A stretch of DNA of 37,057 nt from Pseudomonadales bacterium. Its GTDB lineage: Bacteria; Pseudomonadota; Gammaproteobacteria; Pseudomonadales; Azotimanducaceae. The notes under the pieces are model-generated. The model ran no database searches and had not been told where the DNA came from. It saw only the letters and a list, made by a program, of their open reading frames with translations. Position 1 is the first letter of the stretch. The number at the start of each line of letters is the position of its first letter. Shown piece after piece: positions 14,781 to 29,781 of the stretch. The position numbers were made by a program, and so were the translations under genes. The stretch is from assembly GCA_021295875.1 (NCBI GenBank), contig JAGWBN010000003.1, forward strand, positions 6,914 through 43,970, read 5' to 3'.

Positions 14781-16157
14781 GTGCATAGACGGCGGAACAA
14801 AACGGTAACGAGCATCGCGCTGGCGGCGTTGGCGCTGGCCGCCGCAACGGCGGCGCAGACGCCGCTCACCGATGCGGAACCGGCGAGGCCACGGGTCGCC
14901 GAAGAACTGCGGATCGGCGACGCCATGGTCGGCAACGAGGTGGATGAGGCCGCCGACAAGGTAACGTTGGGCGAGTACCTCGAGGCGGTCAACATCGTTG
15001 AACTCGTAATCGACAAGATCGAGCGGCGCTCGAGCCGCTACGACATCGAGTTGGCCAAGCCGCTGGTGGTCCTCGGCGATGCGCTCGTCGGTGTCGGCGA
15101 CCACCCCGGCGCATTCGGCGCATACGACCGAGCCCTGCACATCACCCGGGTCAACCAGGGACTGCATGATCCCAGCCAGGTGGACATCGTCTACCGCGAA
15201 GCCGCGCTGCATGCGGCCAATGGCGACGCCGAGCGGGCCAACAAACGCCATGAATACGCCTACAATCTCCTATTGCGAGCTTTCGGGAGCAACGACCCGG
15301 CCCTGCTCCCCGGGCTCTTTGCGCTCGCGGACTGGTACCTCACGAACTACAACATCTTCTCCGCGCGGGCCCTGTATCGACATGCGGTGTACGTCGCCAA
15401 CAAGTCGGACAACGACGACGAGGTGGCCACGATCCGCGCCTTGCGCGGTATCGCCGCAAGCTATCTCAGCGAGCGCTTTCCCCCCTACCACGAACCGCAG
15501 ACACAGTCCTCCGCGTCCAGCGGACCCTACACCAGCCGAACCCGTACCATCGGCTCGATCAACAGCTTCTCCCGGGGCGAGCGGGCCCTCATCGAAGTCG
15601 TCAGAGTCGTCAACGCACAGGCGGACGCCACCAACGAGGACCGGGCCGCCGCCATTCTGGAACTGGGCGACTGGTTCCTGATGTTCGAAAAGCACGAGCG
15701 GGCAATGACGCTCTATCGCCGGACGTGGGAACTGTTGAGCGCGAACGAGCCTTTGCTTGCCGAGACATTCCAATCACCCACGCCGCTGTACCTGCCGTTG
15801 CCGCCGGGTCCAGAAAAGTCCCGCAAAGCCACCGGCGGGCCCAGGAATGGCGTCATCGAACTGTCCTTACGGATCGATGAGCAAGGTGCCGTCAGCGAAA
15901 TCGACATGCTGCGTTCGGTTCCCAAGGACCTCATGGACACCGAAGTGCGTCGCGCCGTGCGCCGCGCACGGTATCGGCCCGCCTTCGACGGTCAGGTTCC
16001 GCGCGCGACCGAGGGTGTTCTCGTCAGCCACCCCTTCATCTATTTCGCGACCGACGAAACTGCGGACCCCGACGGGGCCGTGGCCGAAGGCCGCGACCAA
16101 GCCAATGCCAACCGAACACCGGTCGATGCCATCGCCCAGGCGCGAGGTCACCCATGA
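14781..16157 (+). CDS. Secreted TPR protein with TonB-type C-terminal domain
   Basis: First gene of the large operon, 458 residues. GTG 14781 is chosen because GAGGG precedes it and the resulting N-terminus (basic RRRNK, then SIALAALALAAATAAQ) is a signal peptide; the track start is 42 codons upstream and gives no signal. Residues about 40-360 are helical with TPR-like repeats (for example ALVGVGDHPGAFGAYDRALH and ILELGDWFLMFEKHERAMTL). Residues about 365-430 match the TonB C-terminal domain: GVIELSLRIDEQGAVSEIDM, then MDTEVRRAVRRARYRPAFDG. It lacks the TonB N-terminal membrane anchor and Pro-rich spacer, so it would be free in the periplasm or attached to another component. Stop overlaps the next ATG (ATGA). 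Confidence 0.8.
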   Translation: MHRRRNKTVTSIALAALALAAATAAQTPLTDAEPARPRVAEELRIGDAMVGNEVDEAADKVTLGEYLEAVNIVELVIDKIERRSSRYDIELAKPLVVLGDALVGVGDHPGAFGAYDRALHITRVNQGLHDPSQVDIVYREAALHAANGDAERANKRHEYAYNLLLRAFGSNDPALLPGLFALADWYLTNYNIFSARALYRHAVYVANKSDNDDEVATIRALRGIAASYLSERFPPYHEPQTQSSASSGPYTSRTRTIGSINSFSRGERALIEVVRVVNAQADATNEDRAAAILELGDWFLMFEKHERAMTLYRRTWELLSANEPLLAETFQSPTPLYLPLPPGPEKSRKATGGPRNGVIELSLRIDEQGAVSEIDMLRSVPKDLMDTEVRRAVRRARYRPAFDGQVPRATEGVLVSHPFIYFATDETADPDGAVAEGRDQANANRTPVDAIAQARGHP

Positions 16158-17119
16158 CTGCTCACTGCCGTTCGCATCCACAACGTCCATGCACCGCCGC
16201 GGTCGGTACCGCGACCGTGGCGCTCATCGCCGCCTGCGGCTTGTTCCTGTCGGGATGCTACGTGCCACTGCCCGGAGGTTCGGGGGGCATTCCTCGATCG
16301 ATTCCGCCCATCGGGATACCTTCGCCATCACCGTCGCTGCCATCACCCTCGCCACCATCCTCGGGTGGCGGCGCTTCGGGTGGGGGCGGGTCCCCAGGAG
16401 AACCGAGCCTGCTACCGCCCACCTCATCCGGACCACCCGGTGGATCGGGCGGCGGCGCGGGATTTCCCCGCGACGGGTCCAACGGCGGCGGATCGAGTTC
16501 CGGCGGAGGATCCCAAGGGGGACAGGGTCCGGACGGTGATGGCGGCGCCTCCGGTGGTGGAGGCTCCGAGGACGGCATGGGCGAGGACGGTGGTTCCACG
16601 GGCGAGGGTTCCGGCGACCAGAGCGCCGGCGGCTCCGGTGGTGGTGCCGGCGCATCGGGTGGCGACCCCGCCGACCAGGGTTGGGTATTGAGCAACGAGC
16701 TTCCGAACGCAACCGATGCCGGGCCCGGGGGCGAAGGGGACGGCGGCGGGGATGGCGCGGAGACGGACACGGACGCCGGCGGTGGTGGGACCGAGGACGA
16801 TGCCTTGGCCGAGGCACTCGAGGATCTCGACGGTGAGATCCTGGAACAGCAGGTTTCCACCCGCAAAAGTGACCAGGGTCTGGCCGGCGGGACCACGCGC
16901 GGCGGCGGCGATCCCGAAGACGAAGGAACCGCACCTCCAGCGCCGCCGGACCAGCCACCCGTGGCTCGAATACCCGAGCCCGTTCCGCCGGATCGTCCCG
17001 ATGCACGCGACGACGACGTCGTCGCGCGCCAGCTCCGCGAGGCTGCCATGGCCGAGAATGACCCGGATCTTCGCGAGAGCCTTTGGGAAGAGTACCAGCG
17101 CTACAAATCCGGTCTGTAG
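16154..17119 (+). CDS. Gly/Ser/Pro-rich predicted outer-membrane lipoprotein
   Basis: 321 residues, unrecognised. A long signal sequence ends in a lipobox LFLSGC (Cys35), with Tyr at +2, so outer-membrane sorting is expected by the E. coli rule. Residues about 37-70 are Pro/Ser-rich (SPSPSLPSPSPP); 70-220 are Gly/Ser/Asp-rich and low in complexity (GGASGGGGS, GGSGGGAGASGG); the last 80 residues contain PPAPPDQPP then a charged helix ending SLWEEYQRYKSGL. The middle looks like an extended, flexible tether across the periplasm. The open frame, unusual composition with codon bias matching its neighbours, and the ATGA overlap with the first gene all support a real gene despite the low complexity. 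Confidence 0.72.
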   Translation: MTAHCRSHPQRPCTAAVGTATVALIAACGLFLSGCYVPLPGGSGGIPRSIPPIGIPSPSPSLPSPSPPSSGGGASGGGGSPGEPSLLPPTSSGPPGGSGGGAGFPRDGSNGGGSSSGGGSQGGQGPDGDGGASGGGGSEDGMGEDGGSTGEGSGDQSAGGSGGGAGASGGDPADQGWVLSNELPNATDAGPGGEGDGGGDGAETDTDAGGGGTEDDALAEALEDLDGEILEQQVSTRKSDQGLAGGTTRGGGDPEDEGTAPPAPPDQPPVARIPEPVPPDRPDARDDDVVARQLREAAMAENDPDLRESLWEEYQRYKSGL

Positions 17120-17124
17120 TTCCT

Positions 17125-18459
17125 ATGCACCACCTCGAGTTTTTTTCCTCGTCTGCGGTTCGATGCCGCGTTGCGGTTGTGGCCGCCGGCTTCGCCGTCC
17201 TCCTCGGCGCCTGCTCATCGCACACGGTCCGCATGGTGGACACGACGCAGCCGAAGCAGCTCGACGACATCAGCGAGGACATGCTTCTCGACGTGGGCAT
17301 AGCGGTCTTCAACGCCAACGTCCCCGTGGCCTTCGACGATCAAGTCGCGCAGAACATCTCACCCGACGTGCGCCGCGCGGAAGCCAACTACATGGCCTTC
17401 TACACAAAGGACCTGTTGCAGTCGACGGGGAACTGGGGCGCCGTACGGGTCGTGCCGCGTCCCACCCACGCGGTGGACGTCATGGTCGGCGGCACCATCG
17501 TCCACTCGGACGGCGAACGCATGATCCTCGCCACCGAGGTGCGTGACGCCCGAGGGGTCGCCTGGTTCGCGAACACCTACGAAGCGCTGGCCAGCAAATA
17601 CGCCTACGGCGACACCGTGCCGCCCGGGACCGACCCCTTCCAGTCGATCTATCGCCGTCTGGCCGACGATATGGTGACCCACCTGCAGACCCTCGAGCCC
17701 AGCGAGGTGAGCGCCATCCGCCGAACGGCGGAGATGAAGTTCGCATCGGACCTGTCACCGGAGGCGTTCCAGTCGTACGTCGTCCAGACCGAACCCGGGG
17801 TTTTCGAAATCCGCCGGCTACCGGCCGAGGATGATCCAATGCTGCAGCGCATCCGCAAGGTGCGCGAACGCGAGTACATCTTCATCGACACCTTGGACAC
17901 GTACTACGACGACTTCCATCTGCGCATGTACCCCGCATACCAGGGATGGCGGGGCGCGACCTACGACGAGGCCATCGCCTACCGCAATCAGCGCGAGAAG
18001 GTCCGCCGCCAGGCATTGGCCGGCGTCATCGCGATCACGGCCGGTTCCGCCGCCCAGATGGGGGATCGAACCTTGACCCGCTACGCCGGCGCCGTGTCGA
18101 TCATCGGCGGCGCAAGGACGGCCATCAAGGCCATCGAGAGCCTCGACCGCGCCAAGGCCCATGCCGGCATGCTACGCGAACTCGGCATGTCCGCGGAGGC
18201 CGCGATCACACCGCACACCATCGAACTCGAGAACCGCACCCACCGCCTTGACGGTACGGTCACCGCGCAGTACGACGAACTGCGCCAGGTGCTACGGCGG
18301 ATCTACTACCAGGAACTGGGCTTGCCGCCGCCGGCGGACGATTCGTCCGCGGACGACCTCGAGAATGCGGTAGCCGAGGCCGCAGCCGCCAGCGAGGAAC
18401 TGGCCGCCGTCGTCGAAGCAACCGCGAATCCGGGCGCGCTGGCCGAGGGAGCGAAGTGA
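17125..18459 (+). CDS. Predicted outer-membrane lipoprotein of unknown function
   Basis: 444 residues from ATG 17125, five bases after the previous stop; the track start lies inside that gene. The signal peptide ends in AVLLGACSS (lipobox, Cys30, Ser at +2). The next 170 residues look like a mixed alpha/beta domain with the pattern VDVMVGGTIVHSDGERMILATEVRDARG, reminiscent of lipoproteins with a CsgG-like or LpoB-like fold, but I cannot confirm this. A central part has DTYYDDFHLRMYPAYQGWR, then helices (REKVRRQALAGVIAITAGSA), and an Ala/Glu-rich tail. No enzyme motif is visible. It sits between another lipoprotein and membrane-anchored TPR/PEGA proteins, which suggests a structural envelope role. 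Confidence 0.78.
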   Translation: MHHLEFFSSSAVRCRVAVVAAGFAVLLGACSSHTVRMVDTTQPKQLDDISEDMLLDVGIAVFNANVPVAFDDQVAQNISPDVRRAEANYMAFYTKDLLQSTGNWGAVRVVPRPTHAVDVMVGGTIVHSDGERMILATEVRDARGVAWFANTYEALASKYAYGDTVPPGTDPFQSIYRRLADDMVTHLQTLEPSEVSAIRRTAEMKFASDLSPEAFQSYVVQTEPGVFEIRRLPAEDDPMLQRIRKVREREYIFIDTLDTYYDDFHLRMYPAYQGWRGATYDEAIAYRNQREKVRRQALAGVIAITAGSAAQMGDRTLTRYAGAVSIIGGARTAIKAIESLDRAKAHAGMLRELGMSAEAAITPHTIELENRTHRLDGTVTAQYDELRQVLRRIYYQELGLPPPADDSSADDLENAVAEAAAASEELAAVVEATANPGALAEGAK

Positions 18460-18490
18460 CCGGGCGCGCATCCGCGGGCACCCCGGCAAC

Positions 18491-20005
18491 ATGACTGCAG
18501 AGCCCGTACACATCGAACCCGTTGCGCCGCCCCTGTCCGGGCGCGGGCGCGACTCCCGGTGGCACCGTCCTCGAGACCCACGGCGCTCGACATGGCGGGT
18601 ATTCGCGTTCGCCACCGCGCTCACCGTCCTCGCCGGTGCGCTGGTGTTTGTCGCGGCCTATCTCCCGGAACGCATCGACCGACCTCGATCATCGCTGGAC
18701 GCGGCAGCACCCAACCCGGCAAGCCCTCCCCGGAGTCGGCCCGATGAGGAGATCGTGCCACCCTTCGAGGCCGCCGAGTTGGCCCAGGCGCGTCAACAGG
18801 CGGAGGCACAGCTCGCGGAATTCGTCGCCGTGCAGATCCGACTCGACAACGAACTCAATGTTGCGGCTTGGGGCGAGGCCGAGCTTGCCGCGATCAAGGA
18901 TCGGGCGAACGCCGCCGACGAGCTGTTCGTCGCCGGGCGATTCCACGAGGCCCTGGACGAGTACGCCGGGGCCACGGACGAACTCAAGGCGCTCGTCGAC
19001 CGGGGCAACGAACTGTTCGCGGCCGCCCTTGCCGAGGGCGAGGCGGCGATCGCCGCGCTCGACCACCCTGCCGCGGTCGCCAGGTTCGAACAGGCTGCGA
19101 CGATCCGCGCTGACGATCCCCGCGTCGCCGCCGGGTCCGTCCGCACCGCAAGGCTCCCCGAGGTCATCGGCCTGCTGCGCGAGAGCGACCGCGCGGTGCT
19201 GCGTGGCGAGTATCCGCTGGCGGAGGAGTTTCTCGGTCAGGTGAAGGCCATCGATCCGGGAACCACCGGGCTTGACGCGCGCTTTGCCGCCATCGCCGCG
19301 AACATTGCCGACGAACGTCGGCGGAAGACGCTGTCTGAAGGCTTCGGGGCCTTGGAAAGGGGCGAACACGGCGCGGCCATCGATGCGTTCGAGCGAGTGC
19401 TCGCCGGGACCCCGCAGGATCCGGACGCGCTCGCGGGGCGGCAGCAGGCCCGACAGGCGCGAACCTTGGCTGAAATCGATCGGCTGCGCGGCGTGGCGGA
19501 GAAAGCGGAGCGTCAAGCCAAGTGGGAATCGGCCTTGGCAGCCTACGACGCGGCGCTGGCGATCGATCCCACCCTCAAGTTCGCCATCGCTGGCAAACAG
19601 CGAATCGCCGGTCGGGTGGCGCTGATGCAGGCCATGACCAGGTTCAACGAGGATCCCGCAGTGCTGTCCGGCGACGACGAGTTCGCCCGCGCCCGCGAGG
19701 TGCTCGCGAGGGCCGTGGCGGAGGTCGATCCCGGCGAACCCTTCACCGCCGCGATCGCCAAGCTCGGCGCCATCATCACGCAAAGCACGGCACCCGTGCC
19801 GTTGGTGCTGGTCTCGGACAACGCCACCGAAGTGATCATTCACAAGGTCGGCACCCTGGGCATGTTCACGCGCAATGAACTCCTGCTGCGACCGGGCCGC
19901 TACACCATCGTCGGCAGCCGGGACGGGTGCCGGGACGTGCGCAAGGAGATCATCCTGGCGGCCGACATGGAACCGGTCGACATCCGCTGCGTCGAAAACA
20001 TCTAA
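18491..20005 (+). CDS. Membrane-anchored TPR protein with PEGA-like C-terminus
   Basis: 504 residues. A basic cytoplasmic N-tail (HRPRDPRRSTWR) leads into one membrane helix at about residues 37-59 (VFAFATALTVLAGALVFVAA), so the rest is periplasmic. Residues about 95-420 are helical, with TPR-like units such as GFGALERGEHGAAIDAFERV and AERQAKWESALAAYDAALAI. The last 70 residues are beta-rich: VPLVLVSDNATEVIIHKVG, then LLLRPGRYTIVGSRDGCRDV, which resembles a PEGA domain. The next protein also combines one anchor helix with PEGA units, so the two may form a shared periplasmic assembly. It starts 31 bp after the previous gene, without a strong ribosome site. Confidence 0.78.
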   Translation: MTAEPVHIEPVAPPLSGRGRDSRWHRPRDPRRSTWRVFAFATALTVLAGALVFVAAYLPERIDRPRSSLDAAAPNPASPPRSRPDEEIVPPFEAAELAQARQQAEAQLAEFVAVQIRLDNELNVAAWGEAELAAIKDRANAADELFVAGRFHEALDEYAGATDELKALVDRGNELFAAALAEGEAAIAALDHPAAVARFEQAATIRADDPRVAAGSVRTARLPEVIGLLRESDRAVLRGEYPLAEEFLGQVKAIDPGTTGLDARFAAIAANIADERRRKTLSEGFGALERGEHGAAIDAFERVLAGTPQDPDALAGRQQARQARTLAEIDRLRGVAEKAERQAKWESALAAYDAALAIDPTLKFAIAGKQRIAGRVALMQAMTRFNEDPAVLSGDDEFARAREVLARAVAEVDPGEPFTAAIAKLGAIITQSTAPVPLVLVSDNATEVIIHKVGTLGMFTRNELLLRPGRYTIVGSRDGCRDVRKEIILAADMEPVDIRCVENI

Positions 20006-20012
20006 CCGCCCC

Positions 20013-20087
20013 ATGAGACAGACGTTCCGAATGTTGACGACGGATCGGCACCCACTCGCTACCGCCGGCTGCGGGGCGTTCGCATGA
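20013..20087 (+). CDS. Possible 24-residue ORF before the PEGA-SUMF1 gene
   Basis: The 78-bp gap before the next gene holds a short frame starting at ATG 20013 (MRQTFRMLTTD...) and ending at TGA 20085-20087, which overlaps the ATG of the next gene as ATGA. It could be a coupling leader peptide that delivers ribosomes to the next start, or simply chance. No hydrophobic or regulatory pattern is visible. Confidence 0.2.
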   Translation: MRQTFRMLTTDRHPLATAGCGAFA

Positions 20088-22153
20088 GCGACCCGCAAGC
20101 ACCTGCACAGGGCGCCGACGGCGGCCGCATCGAAGCCGTTCAGTTCCGGCCCACCGCCACAACCGCCGGTCGGCGTTCACACTTCATCAGCGTGCGCCGC
20201 ATCCTTTTGGTCGGCGGCTGCACCGTCGCGCTGTCGGTTCTGTGGTTCATCTTCACCGCCAAGTCCGTGCGGCTGGACGTCGACCCGGCCGACGCGAGCA
20301 TCGCCATCGACGGTGGATTCGCGTTTCGTCTGGGCGAGATCCATCTGCTGCGCCAAGGCTCCTACGACCTCGTGGCCGAAGCACTCGGCTACGAGACACT
20401 TCGCCGCTCGATCGAGGTCGGCGCGGAGCGCAATCAGGCGATCGCCGTGGACCTACGCGCTCTCCCGGGATGGGTGACGTTCGCCATCGACCCGGAGGGT
20501 GCCCGGGTCGCGGTGGTCGGCAGCGACGGACTCCACGGCATCTCGCCGGTGGAGCTCCACGTGCCGGCCGGGCCTCAAACCGCCACCGTGAGCCATCCGC
20601 GCTATCAGGAAGCCACCGTTGCCTTCGAGGTCGAGGGGCGCGAGCAGCGCCAGACCGTTACCACATCGCTCGTACCCGACTGGGCCGACGTGACCATTCC
20701 CACCACGCCGACGGGTGCCGAGGTACGCATCGACGGTGAGCTGTCCGGCGTCGCAACGCCCGGACCGGTTCCGGTTCCCGCAGGCGAACGGCGCGTCTCG
20801 GTGAGCCTGCCCGGCTACGGCACCTGGACCGACCTCCTCTACGTCGAGGCGCAGCAGGTGATCGCATTGGACCCCATCACACTCCGCGAGGCCGACGGCC
20901 AGATCCGGGTGGCGTCGAAGCCGCCCGGCGCGAGCGTGACCGTCGACGGCGACTACCGAGGTGTCACCCCCGTGGTACTCGATGTCGCATCGGGCCGCCG
21001 CCACGCGATCCGCGCGTTCAAGGTCGGCTACGCACCGAAGAACGTGTCGGTGACCGTACCCTCCGCTGAACGCAAGAACCTCTCGTTCACCCTCGAGGCC
21101 CTTGAAGGCGTTCTGGCCATCGAGACGCGACCGGAGGATGCCGAACTGTGGATAGACCGCGAACGCCGCCGCCCGGAAGGGGGTACCCTTACCCTGTCGG
21201 CCGTACCCCACGAACTCGAGGTCAAGAAGACCGGCTACGCCAGTTATCGGGTGACGATCGTGCCCCAACCCGGATTGACGCAGGAACTGAAGGTCAAGTT
21301 GCTGACATTGGAGGAAGCGCGTCTCGAGGCCCTCAAACAGGTACGGACCACCGGTCAGGGCCAGGAACTCGTGCTTTTGAGTCCGGGTGCCATACGCATG
21401 GGCGCATCACGGCGGGAACCCGGTCGGCGGGCCAACGAGGTGCTGCGCGACGTCGAACTGACGCGGCTCTTCTATCTCGGACGCCACGAAGTGACCAACG
21501 CACAGTTCCGCGCGTTCGCCTCCGGCCACGACTCCGACGGCTTCGAGGGTCTCGACCTGAACCGCCCGGACCAACCCGTGGTGAGGGTCTCCTGGCAGGA
21601 CGCCGCCCTCTACTGCAACTGGCTGTCCGCGCAGGACGATCTCGAGCCGTTCTACCGCGAGGAGCTGCGCAAGGTCGTGGGGTTCAATCCCACGGCGCTC
21701 GGCTACCGACTGCCCACCGAAGCGGAATGGGCTTGGACCGCACGCCACGTGGAGGGCGCGGACCCGTTGCGCTTCCCCTGGGGCGACCGGCTGCCGCCGC
21801 CGGAACGCCACGGCAACTACGCCGACATCTCGGCGGCGCACACGGTGGCGCGCATCATCTTTGGCTACGCCGACAATCACATCGTCACCGCGCCGGTGGC
21901 TTCGTTCGAGGCCAACGCCAAGGGCATCCACGACCTAGGCGGCAACGTCGCGGAGTGGGTGCACGACTACTACGGCATACCCGCCGCTGCGCCGGCGGTC
22001 GATCCGCTGGGCCCGAATCAGGGCGAGTACCACGTGATCCGCGGCGCCAGCTGGATGCACGGCACGGTCAGTGACCTGCGGCTCTCGTACCGGGACTACG
22101 GCACCGACGGCCGACCCGACGTCGGCTTCCGCATCGCGAGATTCGCGGAGTGA
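20084..22153 (+). CDS. Membrane-anchored PEGA-repeat protein with SUMF1/FGE-fold domain
   Basis: 689 residues. One membrane helix at about 38-59 (RILLVGGCTVALSVLWFIF) is followed by about five consecutive PEGA-like beta units (roughly residues 60-425; for example IRVASKPPGASVTVDGDYRG and VAIPAGERR-type turns), then a SUMF1/formylglycine-generating-enzyme fold from about 435 to the end. FGE-fold signatures include FYLGRHEVTNAQFRAF, YRLPTEAEWAWTARH, GIHDLGGNVAEWVHDYYG, VIRGASWMHG and DVGFRIARF. The two cysteines that bind copper in true aerobic FGE are not present near the C-terminus, so sulfatase activation is unlikely; a binding or PvdO/EgtB-like role is possible. The domain would face the periplasm. 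Stop overlaps the next GTG. Confidence 0.85.
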   Translation: MSDPQAPAQGADGGRIEAVQFRPTATTAGRRSHFISVRRILLVGGCTVALSVLWFIFTAKSVRLDVDPADASIAIDGGFAFRLGEIHLLRQGSYDLVAEALGYETLRRSIEVGAERNQAIAVDLRALPGWVTFAIDPEGARVAVVGSDGLHGISPVELHVPAGPQTATVSHPRYQEATVAFEVEGREQRQTVTTSLVPDWADVTIPTTPTGAEVRIDGELSGVATPGPVPVPAGERRVSVSLPGYGTWTDLLYVEAQQVIALDPITLREADGQIRVASKPPGASVTVDGDYRGVTPVVLDVASGRRHAIRAFKVGYAPKNVSVTVPSAERKNLSFTLEALEGVLAIETRPEDAELWIDRERRRPEGGTLTLSAVPHELEVKKTGYASYRVTIVPQPGLTQELKVKLLTLEEARLEALKQVRTTGQGQELVLLSPGAIRMGASRREPGRRANEVLRDVELTRLFYLGRHEVTNAQFRAFASGHDSDGFEGLDLNRPDQPVVRVSWQDAALYCNWLSAQDDLEPFYREELRKVVGFNPTALGYRLPTEAEWAWTARHVEGADPLRFPWGDRLPPPERHGNYADISAAHTVARIIFGYADNHIVTAPVASFEANAKGIHDLGGNVAEWVHDYYGIPAAAPAVDPLGPNQGEYHVIRGASWMHGTVSDLRLSYRDYGTDGRPDVGFRIARFAE

Positions 22154-22542
22154 ACATCCGCCTTTCGCCCCGGGGCCGACCCTACGCCGTCCTCGCGGTG
22201 TGCATCGCCCTGGCATGCTGTGCCGCCCCCGGCCAACATGCACAGGCGGCGCAGGCGAGCGAAGAGTCCGCGGCGGAGGAATTCGAACCCGTAGAGGTGC
22301 CGGTCTCCGATCCGTCTCCGACCGACGGCGAGGACGCAGCGGAACCGGCGCACGCGAGCCCCGCGGCCGACGGCGAGGACGAGGCTGCGCCCGCCGACGC
22401 GAGCCCGGCGGACGCCGACACCGACACCGACGCCGATACCGACACCGAGCCGCCGCCGACCGAGGACCAAGCCGCCGAGGTATTCGTTCCGAGCGAGAAC
22501 ATTTCCGAAGACATCTCCGTGCCGTTCCCAGTGGACATCTGA
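22150..22542 (+). CDS. Exported acidic, Ala/Asp/Glu/Pro-rich small protein
   Basis: 130 residues, unrecognised. GTG start overlapping the previous stop (GTGA). Residues 1-33 form a signal peptide (YAVLAVCIALACCAAPGQHA); the AxxCC region could be read as a poor lipobox but lacks the usual spacing. The remainder is highly acidic and probably disordered, with a short tandem repeat DADTDTDADTDTEP encoded by repeating gac-acc/gac-gcc codons (about 22411-22450). It ends in ENISEDISVPFPVDI. Such a protein may be a periplasmic spacer or an ion-binding partner. The four-base overlap and its place between the SUMF1-fold gene and the channel gene support it as a real member of the operon. Confidence 0.65.
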   Translation: MNIRLSPRGRPYAVLAVCIALACCAAPGQHAQAAQASEESAAEEFEPVEVPVSDPSPTDGEDAAEPAHASPAADGEDEAAPADASPADADTDTDADTDTEPPPTEDQAAEVFVPSENISEDISVPFPVDI

Positions 22543-22545
22543 ACA

Positions 22546-23343
22546 ATGAAGAAGACCCTGCCGTTCGAGTTCGTCTACCAGGTGATCGCGCTCATCGTCG
22601 CCATCATCATCGTGCATCTGACCTACGTGACGGTCGTGCGCCCGAACGCGGACGCCATCCTCGAGGCCCAGGCCAACCGCGCCCAGACGGGCGAGGCGTT
22701 CGTCCCCGACCGCTCCCTCTATGTGGTGCTGCGGGACTACGAGCAGGAGTCCTGCTTCATTTTGATGATCTGGGCGATGTCCATCATGGGGCTGAAGGCC
22801 AGGAACTCGCTGCGTGAACGCAGGATGCTGCAGGAGTCCTTCATCGAGGTGACCGAAGGCATCAGCGTACTGCCCGAGGACACCCGCGAGTACGCCCGGC
22901 CGCTGCAGGCCCTACCCGAGTCGACGCGCAGCAACCTGCTGCCCCGTGCGTTGCTCGCCGCACTGCAGCGTTTCGCATCCACCAGCAACGTCCAGGATGT
23001 GTCCAACGCCGTGCGCGCGGTCTGCGAAACGGAGTCCGATCGCCTGGACAGCGAGCTGGCGATGGTCCGCTACATCGCCTGGGCCATCCCGTCGATCGGT
23101 TTCATCGGTACCGTGCGCGGCATCGGCGACGCCCTGGGGCAGGCGTACCGGGCCGTGGAAGGCGACATCGCCGGCGTGACCGCGAGCCTGGGGGTGGCAT
23201 TCAACTCGACCTTCGTTGCCCTGGTGATCAGCATCGTCGTGATGTTCCTGATGCACCAACTGCAACTCATCCAGGAGCGCCTGGTGCTCGATACGCAGCA
23301 CTACTGCGACGACTACCTGATCCGTCACATGCAGGTGCGCTGA
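22546..23343 (+). CDS. MotA/TolQ/ExbB-family proton-channel subunit
   Basis: 265 residues. Four hydrophobic segments are visible: about 11-31 (QVIALIVAIIIVHLTYVTVV), 69-84 (SCFILMIWAMSIMGL), 172-195 and 212-238. The last pair carries the family signature: AWAIPSIGFIGTVRGIGDAL and LGVAFNSTFVALVISIVVMF, equivalent to the LLGLLGTVxGI and TxxGLxVAIP regions of TolQ/ExbB. The 85-residue stretch between helices 2 and 3 is cytoplasmic. The four-helix layout is nearer to MotA than to three-helix ExbB. In known systems such a subunit forms a pentamer around a dimer of ExbD/TolR/MotB. No such gene is in this operon; the downstream vWA proteins have the corresponding helix motif. Confidence 0.88.
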   Translation: MKKTLPFEFVYQVIALIVAIIIVHLTYVTVVRPNADAILEAQANRAQTGEAFVPDRSLYVVLRDYEQESCFILMIWAMSIMGLKARNSLRERRMLQESFIEVTEGISVLPEDTREYARPLQALPESTRSNLLPRALLAALQRFASTSNVQDVSNAVRAVCETESDRLDSELAMVRYIAWAIPSIGFIGTVRGIGDALGQAYRAVEGDIAGVTASLGVAFNSTFVALVISIVVMFLMHQLQLIQERLVLDTQHYCDDYLIRHMQVR

Positions 23344-23345
23344 CC

Positions 23346-24644
23346 GTGATCGTGCTGGACATCAACGACGTCGAAACCACCCTCTACCGGGACGGTGAGA
23401 TCGTCTACCGCGAGCCGGGCTTCGCCTTCGTCGACAACGACGGCGCGGTGTTCGGCCGCGAAGCGCTGTCCCGGTCGCGTCTCCATCCCCGGCAGTCCCA
23501 CAACGAATTCTGGCAGCGCCTCAACGGGGACCCGGTGTCGCCGCCCGGCCAGGGCGTGGCGAACCAGGCCGATCTCGTCTACCTGCAGTTGCTCGCCATG
23601 CGCGAGGCCCTCGGCCTGGGACCGACCGATGCCGACCGGCCAGCCCTGGTCGTCGCCGCGCCTAGCACGGTCACCTCCGAACAGTTCGCCGTGCTGCTCG
23701 GAATCGCCGGCGAAGCCGGGTTCGAGGTGCGCACCATCGTCGATGCCGCGGTGGCCGCGGCCTGCCTGCTGCCGCTTTCCGGATCCTGCCGGCTACTCGA
23801 CCTGTCGCTACACCGTGGGCACGTCACCCACTTGGACGTCGACCCCGGGCAAGCCACGGTGCGCCGAACATCCGTTGACGAGATCCCCGCCATCGGGCTT
23901 GCCTCGCTGATCGAAGGCTGGGTGGACGTGGTTGCCGACCGTTTCGTCGACGGTACGCGCTTCGATCCGCTGCGTATCGCCGAGACGGAACAACGGGTTT
24001 TCGAGCAAGTGGTCGCCGGGATCGAGGCCGGGGATGCCGAACTCACCATCGAGGTCGTCCATGACGAGGTGGCGCGGCGGGTCACGGTGGCAAGGCACGC
24101 GCTCGGGGAGAAGTCTCGGCAGCGCTACGAACTCCTGGCGCGGTCCATCGGCGACCCCGGCACCCTCGTGATGAGCCATCGAATGCGCCGACTTCCGGGT
24201 CTCGCTGGCTTTCTTCAGGACGCCGGCCACGAGCTGCTGCCACTTGCTCCGGACGCCGTGGTCGCCGGCATCGCGGAGAATCCCGACCACATCCAACCGG
24301 ATGGCGCACGGGCCGGCGCAAGACTGGTCACCAGCCTGCCCAGCCGCAGCGAGAGCCAAGGCGCGATGTTGCGCGAACCGCCCACGCACCTATTGTGCGC
24401 GGCCGTCGCGATACCGCTCGCCGAAGACACCAACGCACGCGATCATCCCGGCTGCAAGGGTAGCCCGGGGTTCCGCGTGCTGCGCGCCGACCGCAGTTTC
24501 TCGGTGGCCCCCGCCGACGGCGCGGATGTCGCCCTGAACGGCAGTCACATCGACTTCGAACATCCCGCCGAGGCGGGCGACCACATCGTCGCCGGCGGCC
24601 AGGAGTTCCAATTGATCAGCGTTTCCGACCAACAGGACGGGTAA
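23346..24644 (+). CDS. Hsp70/actin-like ATPase-fold protein with FHA-like C-terminus
   Basis: 432 residues, GTG start three bases after the previous gene. The N-terminal 330 residues look like an actin/Hsp70-type nucleotide-binding fold without a chaperone substrate domain: VLDINDVETTLYRDG (phosphate-1-like), LVVAAPSTVTSEQFAVLLGI, then GFEVRTIVDAAVAAACLLPL and LLDLSLHRGHVTHLDVD. The usual DxGxxT phosphate loop is altered to DINDVE and DLSLHRG, so ATP hydrolysis is uncertain. The last 55 residues (RVLRADRSFSVAP, ALNGSHIDFEHPAEAG, EFQLISV) are beta-rich and resemble an FHA-like sandwich. No signal or helix is present, so it is cytoplasmic and could bind the channel's cytoplasmic loop. Confidence 0.72.
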   Translation: MIVLDINDVETTLYRDGEIVYREPGFAFVDNDGAVFGREALSRSRLHPRQSHNEFWQRLNGDPVSPPGQGVANQADLVYLQLLAMREALGLGPTDADRPALVVAAPSTVTSEQFAVLLGIAGEAGFEVRTIVDAAVAAACLLPLSGSCRLLDLSLHRGHVTHLDVDPGQATVRRTSVDEIPAIGLASLIEGWVDVVADRFVDGTRFDPLRIAETEQRVFEQVVAGIEAGDAELTIEVVHDEVARRVTVARHALGEKSRQRYELLARSIGDPGTLVMSHRMRRLPGLAGFLQDAGHELLPLAPDAVVAGIAENPDHIQPDGARAGARLVTSLPSRSESQGAMLREPPTHLLCAAVAIPLAEDTNARDHPGCKGSPGFRVLRADRSFSVAPADGADVALNGSHIDFEHPAEAGDHIVAGGQEFQLISVSDQQDG

Positions 24645-25733
24645 GTGGCCAAGCGCGGCGGCCGCCGGTTCAACGTCTTCTCCCTGTCGTTTCTCGACGT
24701 CATGTCCTGCGGCTTCGGCGCCGTCGTGCTGGTCTTCCTCATCATCAACCACCGCATCGAGGACACCACCAGGGACATCGACCGCGACCTGCTCTCGGAG
24801 TCGCGCAAGCTCGACTTCCAGATCGAGGAGGGTGAGAAGAACCTGGTCGATCTGCAGGAACGGCTGCAGGACACGAAGAAGCGCGTCGGCGATGCCAGCA
24901 ACCAGCTCGTCGCCCTGATCGAGGACCGGGACGCGCGCCGCGAAGAGCTGGAGGAACTCGACGCCAAGTCGGCGGCGGAGCGCGACAGCGTCGAGCAACT
25001 GCAGTCCGACGTCGAGACCCGCGAAAAGGACGTCAAGCAACTGCAGGACGAGGAAGAGGCCCTGTCCGGTACCCGGGTTCGCCAGGTCAAGGGCGAAGGG
25101 GATCGACAGTATCTCACGGGTCTGTATGTCGGCGGTCGGCACGTGCTGATCGCCCTCGACGTGTCGGCGAGCATGCTCGACGAGACCATCGTGCAGGTCA
25201 TCCGGCGGCGCAACATGCCTCGCGAGCGCCAGCTCGCATCACCCAAGTGGCAGCGAGCGCTGGCAACCGTGGATTGGCTCTCTGCGCAGATCCCGTTGGA
25301 CAGCAATCTCCAGATACTGCTCTACAGCGACGAGGCCAGAACGCTCCTGCCTAGCGACGCGTGGTATCCGGTCAGCGACGCGGCGATCGTCAACGCGGCC
25401 TTGGACGACTTGGCCGAGATGGTCCCGAGCGGCGGCACCAATCTCGAAGGGTTGATCGAGGCCCTGGCGCAGTTGCGGCCGTTGCCGGACAACGTGTACC
25501 TGATCACCGACGGTCTGCCGACCCGATCCAATCGCCAACCCCGCTCCGCCGCGGTGAGCGGACGCGACCGCGTCCGATTCATGGAAGACGCCGAAAAACG
25601 GATGCCACGGGACGTAACCGTGAACGTCATCATGTTCCCCATGGAAGGTGACCCCAACGCATCCGCCGCCTATTGGATCCTGGCCGGCCGCAGCGGCGGC
25701 ACGTACATGTCGCCGTCCAGGGACTGGCCATGA
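24645..25733 (+). CDS. Membrane-anchored vWA protein 1, ExbD-like transmembrane motif
   Basis: 362 residues, GTG start abutting the previous stop (TAAGTG). Residues 12-34 form one membrane helix, FSLSFLDVMSCGFGAVVLVF, with Asp18 near its start. Residues about 36-140 are a charged coiled coil (SESRKLDFQIEEGEKNLVDL and on). Residues about 165-345 are a vWA domain with a complete MIDAS-type start DVSAS (172-176), a threonine in SGGTNLEGLIEAL and an aspartate in VYLITDGLPTRS, so metal-dependent ligand binding is plausible. With a short cytoplasmic N-tail the vWA domain would be periplasmic. The FLDVM core matches ExbD (PFIDVM) and TolR (PLLDVL). It ends with a four-base overlap (ATGA) with vWA2. 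Confidence 0.85.
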   Translation: MAKRGGRRFNVFSLSFLDVMSCGFGAVVLVFLIINHRIEDTTRDIDRDLLSESRKLDFQIEEGEKNLVDLQERLQDTKKRVGDASNQLVALIEDRDARREELEELDAKSAAERDSVEQLQSDVETREKDVKQLQDEEEALSGTRVRQVKGEGDRQYLTGLYVGGRHVLIALDVSASMLDETIVQVIRRRNMPRERQLASPKWQRALATVDWLSAQIPLDSNLQILLYSDEARTLLPSDAWYPVSDAAIVNAALDDLAEMVPSGGTNLEGLIEALAQLRPLPDNVYLITDGLPTRSNRQPRSAAVSGRDRVRFMEDAEKRMPRDVTVNVIMFPMEGDPNASAAYWILAGRSGGTYMSPSRDWP

Positions 25734-26696
25734 TCCCGCGACGCGGATTGGAAGAGATCGGCCTGTCGTTCCTCGACGTCATCTGCTGTGGATTCGGCGC
25801 CATCATCCTGCTGCTGATGATCGTCAAGACCGTGGAACCGATCCTCCTCGAGGAGCCGGTGGTCAATCTCGAGGGCCTCGTAACCGAGAAACGGGACTCG
25901 CTCAACGAAATCATCGGCCGCACGCGGATCCTGACGCGGCAGCTCAGCGACGAGGAGCGGCAACTGGCCCGCGACCTGGCCGAGCTGGCTCGGCTGGAAC
26001 GCGACCTTAACGACATCCTCGCCCGCTACCACGCCACTAGTGAACAAGCCGAATTTCAGACCAACCAGCGTCTGCGGCTCGCCCGGGCCAAGCAGTCGCT
26101 GACCGAGGAGATGGAGCGTCTGCTGGGCCTCGACTTCGTGCGCAGCACCATCGACAGCGAGTACATCATCTTCGTCATCGACACCTCGGGCAGCATGCGC
26201 CAGTGGGCTTGGCCGATCGTCCAAAGGAAGGTCCAGGAAACGCTGCAGATCTATCCCCGCGTCAAGGGCATCCAGGTCATGAACGACATGGGCGACTACA
26301 TGTTTCCGCAGTTCGCCGGCCGCTGGATTCCCGACTCCGAACGCCGCCGGCGCGACATCGTGCGGCTTCTTGCGACCTGGAGCGCGCAGTCGAATTCCAG
26401 TCCGGTCGAGGGGATTCGGGCGGCCATCACGACGTTCTACGCCACCGACCGCAAGATCAGCATCTACGTCTTCGGCGACGACTTCTCCGGCCGGTCCATC
26501 GAGGACGTCGTCGACACCGTCGATCAGCTCAACCGCATCGCCGAGGACGGAAGCCGACGCGTGCGCATTCACGCCGTGGGCTTCCCCGTGGTGGTGGGTG
26601 CCCCCTCCGGCAACCGGTTCGCCGCACTCATGCGCGAGTTGACCTACCGGAACAACGGAACCTTTGTCGCCCTGCCACGATTGGAGTAGGCTTCAA
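25536..26696 (+). repeat. Direct repeat, copy A (vWA1 tail plus vWA2)
   Basis: First copy of a tandem duplication. It runs from CAACCCCGCTCCGCC in the vWA1 tail, through all of vWA2, to TAGGCTTCAA just after the vWA2 stop. Copy B is 1415 bp further on. The copies differ at many third codon positions, so the duplication is not recent. Confidence 0.9.
25730..26689 (+). CDS. Membrane-anchored vWA protein 2, ExbD-like transmembrane motif
   Basis: 319 residues from ATG 25730 (the track start lies 19 codons upstream inside vWA1). Layout repeats that of vWA1: short N-tail, one membrane helix at about 11-33 (GLSFLDVICCGFGAIILLLM, Asp16), a heptad-like coiled coil (about 50-135, NEIIGRTRILTRQLSDEERQ and on) and a vWA domain from 144. 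The MIDAS start is DTSGS (151-155). The loop SNSSPVEGIRAAITTFY and the strand ISIYVFGDDFSGRS are the expected later elements. Sequence similarity to vWA1 is strong only in the helix and in the vWA core, so they are distant paralogues that may work as a heterodimer. An intact copy; a frameshifted copy follows. Confidence 0.87.
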   Translation: MIPRRGLEEIGLSFLDVICCGFGAIILLLMIVKTVEPILLEEPVVNLEGLVTEKRDSLNEIIGRTRILTRQLSDEERQLARDLAELARLERDLNDILARYHATSEQAEFQTNQRLRLARAKQSLTEEMERLLGLDFVRSTIDSEYIIFVIDTSGSMRQWAWPIVQRKVQETLQIYPRVKGIQVMNDMGDYMFPQFAGRWIPDSERRRRDIVRLLATWSAQSNSSPVEGIRAAITTFYATDRKISIYVFGDDFSGRSIEDVVDTVDQLNRIAEDGSRRVRIHAVGFPVVVGAPSGNRFAALMRELTYRNNGTFVALPRLE

Positions 26697-26732
26697 CCAA
26701 GCGCTCGCCACGCCGACGCAGCAGGTCGGACG

Positions 26733-26972
26733 ATGACCACCGGACGACTTGCCCCACGCGGCGCCGCGGCCGGCCTGATCGTCCTCTCGGCCGCGTGGCT
26801 CGCCGGCGGCTGTGTCCAGACCACGGTCCAGGGCGTGCGCCAGGCGGAAACCGACCTCGGCGCGAGCGAATCCGTCGTGGTCCTGTCGAGGAAACACGAG
26901 ACCCAGGGCGAGACCGAAGACGACTTCGTCTCATGCGTCAGCGACCAGATCAACCCCGCTCCGCCACGGTGA
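26733..26972 (+). pseudogene. Truncated copy of the terminal operon lipoprotein
   Basis: ATG 26733 opens a 79-residue frame. Its first 71 residues closely match the start of the lipoprotein gene at 29077 (signal ending LAGGC, then VQTTVQGVRQAETDLGASES). After CVSD at 26945 the match stops and the frame reads QINPAPPR then TGA, because the DNA switches to a copy of the vWA1 tail. It lacks about 70% of the parent. The 32 bases before its ATG also match the end of the preceding lipoprotein gene (28259-29080). It could still produce a short lipopeptide but is best read as a duplication remnant. Confidence 0.85.
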
Positions 26973-27148
26973 GCGGGCGAGACCGCACCCGATTCATGGA
27001 GAGCGCCGCAGAACTATTGCCAAGGGGCGTCGTGTTGAACGTCATCCTGCTTCCAATGGAAGGCGACCCCGGCGCGTCCGCCGCCTATTGGATGCTGGCG
27101 GGCCGCATCGGCGGCACGTACACTTCGCCGTTCAGGGACTGGCCATGA
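26951..27148 (+). pseudogene. Remnant of the vWA1 C-terminus
   Basis: About 65 codons that match the last 65 residues of vWA1: VSGRDRTRFMESAAELLPRG, GDPGASAAYWMLAGRIGGTY, ending SPFRDWP. No start or vWA core is present. It ends with the same ATGA overlap into the next vWA2-like frame as the intact gene does. The track ORF 26795-27148 extends it only through an out-of-frame part of the truncated lipoprotein. Non-functional by itself. Confidence 0.88.
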
Positions 27149-28106
27149 ACCCGCGACGTGGATTGGAAGAGATCGGCCTGTCGTTCCTCGACGTCATCTG
27201 CTGTGGATTCGGGGCCATCATTCTGCTGCTGATGATCGTCAAGACGGTGGAACCGATCCTGCTCGAGGAGCCGGTGATCAACCTTGAGGGGCTCGTGATC
27301 GAGAAGCGGGATTCGCTCAACGAGATCATCGGCCGCACCCGGATCCTGACCCGGCAGCTCAGCGACGAGGAGCGGCAACTGGCCCGCGATCTGGCTGAAC
27401 TGGCCCGGCTGGAACGGGACCTCAACGACATCCTCGCCCGCTACCACGCCACCGCCGAGGAAGCCGAGCACCAGAACACCGAGCGGCTGCGGCTCGCCCG
27501 GGCCAAGCAGTCGCTGACCGAGGAGATGGAGCGTCTGCTGGGCCTCGACTTCGTGCGCAGCACCAGGTCGACAGCGAGTACATCATCTTCGTCATCGACA
27601 CCTCGGGCACCATGCAGCGGGGGGCGTGGCCGATAGTCCAAAGGAAAGTCCAGGAAACGCTGCAGATCTATCCCCGCGTCAAAGGCATCCAGATCATGAA
27701 CGACATGGGCGGCTACATGTTTCCGCAGTTCGCCGGCCGCTGGATTCCGGACTCCGAACGCCGCCGGCGGGACATCGTGCAGATTCTCGCGACTTGGAGC
27801 CCAATGTCGAATTCCAGCCCCGTCGAGGGTATCCGCGCGGCCATCACCACCTTCTACAGCACCGACCACAAAGTCAGCATCTACGTCTTCGGCGACGACT
27901 TCTCGGGCAGGTCCATCGAATATGTCGTGGACACCGTCGATGAGCTCAACCGTATCGCCGAGGACGGCAGCCGGCGCATGCGCATTCACGCGGTGGGCTT
28001 TCCCGTGAGGGTGGGGAGCCCGTCCGGCAATCGGTTCGCCGCGCTCATGCGCGAACTCACCTACCGGAACAACGGAACCTTTGTCGCCCTGCCGCGATTG
28101 GAGTAG
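27145..28106 (+). pseudogene. Second copy of vWA2, interrupted by a 2-nt insertion
   Basis: Near-identical in layout to vWA2 (roughly 90% of residues by eye). ATG 27145 leads into the same membrane helix GLSFLDVICCGFGAIILLLM and coiled coil. After RST (codon 140) two extra bases, GG at 27566-27567, shift the frame, and the original frame ends at 27636. The vWA half continues intact in another frame to 28106. In this copy the MIDAS reads DTSGT instead of DTSGS. Substitutions are mostly silent or conservative on both sides of the shift, so the gene was under selection until recently; sequencing error or very recent decay would explain it. No slippery heptamer is visible. The N-terminal product would be helix plus coiled coil only, 163 residues. 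Confidence 0.85.
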
Positions 28107-28258
28107 GCTTCAATTGACCCGTTCGGAGCGCCACTCGCATGGCACTCACTCGCATTGCACTGGGGCTGGCTCGTTGCCCGGCGTCGGCGGCGACGCTTCT
28201 CGCCGGAACAATTCGCGTGGCGAATTCTCGGCACGGCCGTGAGGCGGTGGCGTTTGGC

Positions 28259-29080
28259 GTGCATCGCAATCGACGGAGTCCCTACGGTGCGCTGGCTACC
28301 GCGTTGGTCGCCGGCTGGCTACTCGGCGGCTGCAGCAGTGGCGCATCCATCACCGTGGATGTCGACGTGCCCCGTCCGCTGGTCGAACCGATCAACGCCG
28401 CGGTCGGCATCTACTACAACGACGAACTGAGGAACTACGTCCACGAGGAAGAACTCGTCGACCACGGCAAGTACCGGATCGACATAGGTGCCTCCCATGC
28501 ACCGGTGTTCGCCCAGGTCTTCGATGCGATGTTCGAGACCGTCGTGCCCATGGCCCTCGTCCCTGGCGACGAGGCACCGGCCGACGAGCCACCCGCGGAC
28601 GAGACACCCGCCGACGACGAGGCCGGTGCGGGGGATGCCGACCTCGAAGAAACGGACGCCGCGACCGACAGCGATGCCGCGGGTGCGCCACCGGTCAGGT
28701 TCACCCGCCCGGACGGCAGCAAGCCCGCCGTCGCCGGCATCATCGCGCCGAGCATCGAAGAGGTCCAATTCGCGATTCCGAGACAGACGGGCGGCGAGTT
28801 CTACGAGGTCTGGATCCGCTACCGACTGGATCTCTACGACACCAACGGCAACCGCTTGGGCGAATACCCCGTGATCGGCTACGGCAAAGCCAACAAAGCC
28901 AACTTCGGTGGCCTTGGGCAGGCTTCACCCGCGCTCAACGAGGCGACCATGTGGGCGCTGCGCGACGCAGCCGCAATGCTCTCGTTCCAGTTCCGCGACC
29001 AATCGGAGTCCAAAGACTGGCTCGCCATGATCGCCACCCGCAACGCCTACGCCACGCCGCCGCACGCGGTCGGACAATGA
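28259..29080 (+). CDS. Predicted outer-membrane lipoprotein of unknown function
   Basis: 273 residues from GTG 28259. The track start (ATG 28139) would place the lipobox at residue 65; the GTG puts it at residue 25 (GALATALVAGWLLGGC, Ser at +2), and GGCGGTGG lies 8 bases upstream. The exact start is still uncertain. The first domain (about 28-105) contains VGIYYNDELRNYVHEE and VFAQVFDAMFETVVPM, a pattern I associate with conserved envelope lipoproteins of unknown role. An acidic linker (PADEPPADETPADDEAG) separates it from a second domain with FYEVWIRYRLDLYDTNG and a helical tail. The last codons overlap the next gene as ATGA, and a relic of its end is also present at 26701-26732. Confidence 0.75.
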   Translation: MHRNRRSPYGALATALVAGWLLGGCSSGASITVDVDVPRPLVEPINAAVGIYYNDELRNYVHEEELVDHGKYRIDIGASHAPVFAQVFDAMFETVVPMALVPGDEAPADEPPADETPADDEAGAGDADLEETDAATDSDAAGAPPVRFTRPDGSKPAVAGIIAPSIEEVQFAIPRQTGGEFYEVWIRYRLDLYDTNGNRLGEYPVIGYGKANKANFGGLGQASPALNEATMWALRDAAAMLSFQFRDQSESKDWLAMIATRNAYATPPHAVGQ

Positions 29081-29781
29081 CTACCGGACGGCTTCCGCCA
29101 CGCGGCATCGCTGTCGGCCTACTCGTCCTCGCGGCCGCGTGGCTTGCCGGCGGTTGCGTGCAGACCACGGTCCAGGGTGTGCGCCAGGCGGAAACCGACC
29201 TCGGCGCGAGCGAGTCCGTGGTGATCCTGTCGAGGAAACACAAGACCCAGGGCGAGACCGAAGACGACTTCGTCGCCTGCGTCAGCGACTATGTCAAAAG
29301 CGGCAGCGACGCCGTGCCCATCCTCACCGAACGCGAGTTCGTCGATGCCACCTTCCCCTGGTTCGAGCCGCGCACGGCGCCGCTCAACATGGACGATCTC
29401 ACCCAGGTCATCAACCGGCCCCTCATCGCTGAACGAATCGACGAGATCGGCGTCCGCTACCTCGTCTGGATCGAGGGCCAGACGCGACGATCCGATCAGA
29501 CCGGCAGCCTCCAGTGCACCATGATGACCGGCGGCGTACCCGGTTGTCTGGGGTTCCTGTCGTGGGAGCGGGGGTCGAACTACGAGGCCTCGGTGTGGGA
29601 CGTCCGTCGCAAGATGACCGTCGGCACGTTGAGTTCCGAGGCCGCCGGCACGAGTTTCGTCATCGCCGTGGTGGTTCCCGTGCCCGTCATCGCCCGGGTC
29701 CAGGAGGAGGCGTGCGCCAACCTGTCGCAGGAGATCAAGAACTTCCTCGGCCCGCAGGACTCGTCGACCGCCGACGCGTAG
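29077..29781 (+). CDS. Predicted lipoprotein, last gene of the envelope operon
   Basis: 234 residues from ATG 29077, overlapping the previous stop. Lipoprotein signal LLVLAAAWLAGGC (Cys27, Val at +2). The mature part has DDFVACVSDYVKSGSDAVPI, then TEREFVDATFPWFEPRTAPL and VRYLVWIEGQTRRSDQTG, followed by a short Cys-containing loop (LQCTMMTGGVPGCLGFLSWE) and beta-strand pattern YEASVWDVRRKMTVGTLSSE. The ending VIAVVVPVPVIARVQEEACA then a helix is consistent with a CsgG/LpoB-like alpha/beta domain, but I cannot assign a family. Four cysteines could form disulfides in the periplasm. A truncated duplicate lies at 26733. Confidence 0.78.
   Translation: MTTGRLPPRGIAVGLLVLAAAWLAGGCVQTTVQGVRQAETDLGASESVVILSRKHKTQGETEDDFVACVSDYVKSGSDAVPILTEREFVDATFPWFEPRTAPLNMDDLTQVINRPLIAERIDEIGVRYLVWIEGQTRRSDQTGSLQCTMMTGGVPGCLGFLSWERGSNYEASVWDVRRKMTVGTLSSEAAGTSFVIAVVVPVPVIARVQEEACANLSQEIKNFLGPQDSSTADA

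Follow-up and report, generated by a model that had tools for sequence, protein, structure and literature searches.

A secreted TPR protein with a TonB C-terminal domain heads a conserved operon of a predicted TolQ-like/vWA motor

A TPR-TonB protein, here called A, occurs together with a vWA motor; the paper that predicted this motor class (PMC12204202) did so without describing A. The A-headed operon, found in the window (i.e. the whole analysed stretch of 37,057 nucleotides), is widely conserved, its gene arrangement being the same in members of the order Pseudomonadales and outside it. The predicted vWA motor class thereby gains a defined operon and a likely output side, and the split of this operon into a core and an accessory block (A, L and M) makes it directly testable, in marine gammaproteobacteria that can be cultured, what vWA motors push or pull on.

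Domain architecture of protein A

The open reading frame of A is intact, with a GTG start at 14781 and a TGA stop ending at 16157, and runs without interruption. The following features were assigned:

14781..16157, plus strand: A, secreted TPR-TonB_C protein of 458 amino acids, gene 1 of the operon (Pfam, NCBIfam and PDB profile matches, AlphaFold, conserved synteny)
14781..14855, plus strand: signal peptide of A, approximate (hydrophobic N-terminus with TAA|Q, SHLS absent)
14916..15776, plus strand: TPR superhelix of A, residues 46-332 (TPR_12, AlphaFold helices, Foldseek match to kinesin light chain TPR)
15840..16046, plus strand: TonB C-terminal domain (TonB-CTD) of A, residues 354-422 (PF03544, TIGR01352, PDB TonB structures, beta-beta-alpha-beta)

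The first-pass annotation had placed a TonB C-terminal domain near residues 365-430 of A and had named a TonB_C profile search and a structure prediction as ways to examine it. The domain itself was confirmed by both, while its position had to be corrected to approximately residues 354-422. In Pfam, TonB_C (PF03544) matched residues 355-411 at E=1.2e-7, its 32.5 bits exceeding the cut-off of 24.6, and TPR_12 was found with E=2e-11. In NCBIfam, the tonB_Cterm model TIGR01352 scored above its family cut-off. A profile of the A family retrieved the TonB structures 2k9k (5.8e-12), 6i97 (2.5e-10) and 6fip (3.1e-10) from the PDB, with matches spanning profile positions of about 330-419, and 26 of the 28 family members matched TonB_C individually. 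Judged from these profiles, the TonB-CTD match in A lies well beyond chance.

The AlphaFold model places TPR helices at residues 46-332, followed by strands at 354-365 and 370-380, a helix at 387-395 and a last strand at 410-422. Rather than lacking the TonB-CTD fold, the predicted C-terminal domain has its strand-strand-helix-strand succession, i.e. the element order of TonB minus the first helix. The model was built on an alignment of only 3 sequences and has a pLDDT of about 54-78 in the TonB-CTD, hence it supports the topology of the domain but not its detail. The alignment was that shallow because the single-sequence search of genome contigs gave two relatives, both from gammaproteobacterial MAGs, of which one carries the label Pseudomonadales. 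The loss of the first helix fits the Pfam match, which starts at profile position 14 of 79. In the alignment of the A family, the 'YPxxA' start of TonB is exchanged for 'LYLPLPxxP', and the last strand of the TonB-CTD is retained.

The N-terminus of A consists of a single hydrophobic stretch with cleavage-type residues resembling a signal peptide, and a hydropathy scan gave no further segment with a mean hydropathy above 1.4, i.e. no other transmembrane (TM) segment. The SxHxL/SHLS motif is absent in a sequence scan, and in place of a proline-rich linker A contains the TPR superhelix. Hence, the view that A is a secreted protein in which TPR repeats precede a TonB domain without the TonB anchor was correct. 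Compared with the TonB-ExbB-ExbD system, in which TonB serves iron uptake, the C-terminal domain of A is homologous to that of TonB and the channel protein G to ExbB/TolQ, but A lacks a TM anchor, SHLS and a Pro-rich linker, and the operon lacks a member of the ExbD family. Among the features of a TonB transducer, A thus has the C-terminal domain, whereas the uncleaved SHLS TM helix, the Pro-rich linker and the ExbD partner are missing. With three defining features missing, A should not be classified as TonB, even though an automatic annotation would probably name it after that protein.

The TPR-TonB_C architecture by itself is neither new nor unique to the operon. At least four further secreted proteins of the TPR-TonB_C type are encoded in the source genome away from the operon, which together with many orthologues rules out that A is a unique one-off fusion. 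They include three tandem genes of about 360 amino acids each (L003, L006 and L008; G000:C74), in which the 'YP' start of the first TonB helix is present. A stand-alone paralogue of A (G000:C135:4174-5259; L013/L094) is kept within the genus, with housekeeping genes as neighbours, and matches TonB_C below the cut-off. The paralogues were also considered as a second system and rejected as such; their neighbours are housekeeping genes that are mostly not common between the loci. With such solitary paralogues present in the genus, the architecture is not tied to a motor.

Gene content of the operon

A heads an operon of approximately 15 kb (14781-29781) in which all listed genes lie tightly packed on the plus strand. 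Overlaps of a few bases occur at A/B, E/F, I/J and L/M, those of A/B and L/M being formed by ATGA. Downstream of A it comprises:

16154..17119, plus strand: B, putative lipoprotein rich in Gly and Pro (ATGA overlap of its start with the stop of A; conserved position)
17125..18459, plus strand: C, putative lipoprotein with 53% mean column identity in its family (alignment A7, synteny)
18491..20005, plus strand: D, single-TM TPR protein (Pfam TPR_11, synteny)
20084..22153, plus strand: E, single-TM protein with PEGA repeats and an FGE-sulfatase-like domain (PF08308, PF03781)
22150..22542, plus strand: F, small acidic secreted protein (ORF and position)
22546..23343, plus strand: G, ExbB/TolQ-like channel with invariant Thr189 and Thr222 (PF01618, 1.5e-14; alignment)
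23346..24644, plus strand: H, cytoplasmic-looking protein with a weakly FHA-like C-terminus (PDB profile matches to FHA-type domains, E=0.013 only)
24645..25733, plus strand: I, TM-vWA protein with an ExbD/TolR-like transpore helix carrying the FLD motif (VWA_2, 2.9e-7; invariant D18)
25730..26689, plus strand: J, second TM-vWA protein with the FLD motif (alignment A3)
27018..28106, plus strand: K, additional J copy, 89% identical, whose frame is broken near 27567 (sequence junction)
28139..29080, plus strand: L, putative lipoprotein of A-containing clusters (synteny of the relatives' clusters)
29077..29781, plus strand: M, putative lipoprotein co-occurring with A (presence/absence pattern; low-confidence model with LpoB/CsgG-like topology)

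For C, H, L and M, Pfam scans gave no convincing family. The single-sequence model of M has a mean pLDDT of 42.5, and its Foldseek matches to HpaA/CsgG/LpoB-like proteins are only a lead. The N-terminal half of H looks actin/Hsp70-like by eye. The K region (27018-28113) is 89% identical at the DNA level to the J region (25603-26698), and the relatives inspected have only one J and no K in the operon; K is either a decaying J duplicate or an assembly error. The source genome is 81% complete and consists of 267 contigs.

The predicted motor core

A TolQ-like channel in the operon of A, as the first-pass annotation had stated, was found in G. In the alignment of G, T189 and T222 are kept in all sequences having those columns. 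Both I and J open with 'SFLDVMSCGFGAVVLIFLI'-type helices, and the aspartate of the FLD motif is present in 97 of the 97 I/J reading frames inspected. I passes the VWA_2 cut-off, while J shows a sub-threshold VWA match with a DTSGS motif. No ExbD (PF02472) is encoded in the operon, the six ExbD matches of the genome being located on other contigs; canonical ExbB/ExbD/TonB genes are found elsewhere in the genome. Membership of I and J in the ExbD family by sequence was rejected, as no PF02472 match was obtained even at E=10, so that their likeness to ExbD is one of motif and topology only. The two TM-vWA proteins appear to fill the ExbD role.

A TolQ-like gene combined with heterologous pairs of TM-vWA genes, with a transpore helix and without tolR, was predicted in 2025 to form a motor class (PMC12204202), which makes the G/I/J core a member of a described class, i.e. 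a predicted proton-driven motor of a known, so far predicted type. The TPH-vWA/TolQ-like motors described there (section 8, Fig. 4c-d) agree with the present one in combining a TolQ-like gene with heterologous pairs of TM-vWA genes without tolR/exbD, in the conserved aspartate of the transpore helix and in the threonine ring of the channel. The class is also predicted to assemble at 5:2, its helix lying within the pentamer. However, for this second (TPH-vWA) family the text describes no TonB-CTD protein, PEGA, FGE or lipoproteins, and it ties a TPR gene to the first (SHLS-vWA) family, unlike the situation here. In the literature on the domain combination of the operon, only PMC12204202 was found, and no TPR-TonB protein appears in its text.

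A second, divergent motor cluster, made up of C-D-E-G-I-J only, exists in two genomes (G022 and G190; L117 and L118) without A, H, L and M.

Conservation and co-occurrence of A

The order A-B-C-D-E-(F)-G-H-I-J-L-M is kept, with the exception of K, in more than 20 genomes, which belong to the same genus, to its family or to further families within the order. Among 195 genomes drawn evenly from the order, the motor (represented by J) was present in 44 and A in 43; both occurred together in 43 and A alone in none. Put differently, A was found in 43 of the 44 motor-positive genomes versus 0 of the 151 motor-negative ones. A and J share 32 contigs, and on each of them A lies upstream of J by 7.9-11.0 kb, with both on one strand. 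The raw p-value of this linkage is inflated by relatedness, yet the pattern spans many families.

A sample of 274 genomes of the class contained 18 motor-positive genomes outside the order, and full-length A-like matches occurred in motor-positive genomes only, apart from one weak TPR-only match. A and M were found together in 6 of these 18 and neither in 12 (Fisher p=5e-5, uncorrected for relatedness); hence, outside the order A tracks the lipoprotein M (6/6 vs 0/12) and not the motor, although the few independent lineages with A and M (G368 and G480 belong to the same genus) mean that this link could reflect common inheritance of an accessory block.

Where A is missing from a cluster, L and M are in most cases missing from its vicinity too, and in some cases so is H. 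Three of the six A-bearing genomes outside the order (G242, G459 and G481) have A at the cluster end opposite to its usual place, where it adjoins M-L in G459 and G481 and L in G242, while in G017 L-M-A-A is found on a contig separate from the motor. This neighbourhood, combined with the shared presence and absence, groups A with L and M into an accessory block, and the presence/absence pattern sets it against a core of B-C-D-E-G-I-J, often with H. Two or three tandem A genes stand beside the motor operon in several genomes (L119, L120, L121, L134, L135 and L136). In some of the genomes with tandem A genes, L-M is inserted in reverse orientation.

Proposed function of A

The first-pass annotation had seen all three roles of a Ton-like system in altered form. 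Such an altered set does exist, given that I and J, the two TM-vWA proteins with their invariant FLD motif, seem to take the place of ExbD, but the assignment of A to the TonB role is not supported: A has no known element for engaging the motor, canonical ExbB/ExbD/TonB are encoded elsewhere, and outside the order A follows M instead of the motor. We tentatively prefer another reading, which we regard as quite possible though still short of probable, namely that A, soluble in the periplasm, serves as an adaptor linking the vWA motor to outer-membrane lipoproteins and is not a TonB-type energy transducer. The contacts that we infer would be as follows. Proton flow through a pentamer of G would move the vWA pair I/J, the TPR superhelix of A would grip a periplasmic part of the machine (vWA, PEGA or D), and the TonB-CTD would bind, by beta-strand addition, a strand from one of the outer-membrane lipoproteins, for which L and M are the best candidates. 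A would then link the motor and the outer membrane loosely, acting as an adaptor and not as a membrane-anchored transducer. The TonB and TolA domains bind their partners via beta-strand addition (PMC12204202), and the last strand is retained in A. In a broader and rather doubtful generalization, TonB-type domains would have been freed of their anchor and taken over, as soluble couplers carried on TPR repeats, by a rotary vWA motor, whose force would reach outer-membrane lipoproteins via an exchangeable adaptor. If true, this would represent a third coupling mode beside the side-attachment of TolA/TonB and direct vWA rotation.

Other roles of A have to be weighed against this adaptor. Soluble TPR proteins frequently act in assembly, and A might be a factor for assembly or quality control that builds the machine or delivers the lipoproteins L/M without transmitting force. 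Its place as the first gene of the operon, its co-occurrence with L/M and its tandem duplication in several genomes would suit such a function, and nothing specific speaks against it except that the TonB fold is, to our knowledge, no known chaperone fold; we consider it rather unlikely, to about the same degree as the generalization above. The several secreted TonB_C proteins that are encoded in the genome without a motor nearby could also indicate that the TonB-CTD of A is solely a module for peptidoglycan binding or dimerisation, and that A serves as a scaffold in the periplasm by which the machine is held to the cell wall. However, the last strand, which is the partner-binding strand in TonB, is retained in the A family and A co-occurs with a lipoprotein, and we therefore regard the scaffold as quite improbable. 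The same retained strand, along with the genuine TonB-CTD homology, would be expected if A were an unanchored TonB variant still serving TonB-dependent receptors with motion borrowed from the operon's channel. This we hold to be very unlikely, given that A lacks a TM helix, the SHLS motif and a Pro-rich linker, that the operon contains no receptor gene, that canonical TonB/ExbB/ExbD are present elsewhere in the genome, and that the presence of A tracks the lipoprotein M.

Relation to other known systems

Several known machineries were compared with the operon and rejected as its identity. TonB-dependent uptake as its role was dismissed for want of a receptor gene in the operon and because of the canonical Ton genes elsewhere. 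Tol-Pal was discarded, as no TolB propeller or Pal match in Pfam was found among the operon proteins, and anti-phage defence, of the Zorya type (ZorAB) or another, was excluded, as PADLOC gave no ZorA/ZorB match but weak matches only, mostly to the coiled coil of I. The FGE-sulfatase-like domain of E matches the model of GldK/PorK from the type IX secretion ring with 2.2e-25, which is far below the GldK family cut-off, and no match to GldL/M/N was obtained among the operon proteins scanned.

By its parts list, the Agl-Glt gliding machine of Myxococcus is the nearest functional parallel. It combines a TolQ-like motor with the TonB_C-like GltG/GltJ and the secreted TPR proteins GltC, GltD and GltE (PMC3169522, PMC9389320), which resembles the set of parts found here. 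However, AglQ/AglS belong to the ExbD family, and GltG spans the membrane and combines FHA with TonB_C, whereas here TonB_C resides on the secreted TPR protein A. Identity of the operon with Agl-Glt was ruled out, since no PF02472 is present in the operon and A is secreted. As a side observation, GltG contains an FHA domain, and the C-terminus of H is weakly FHA-like.
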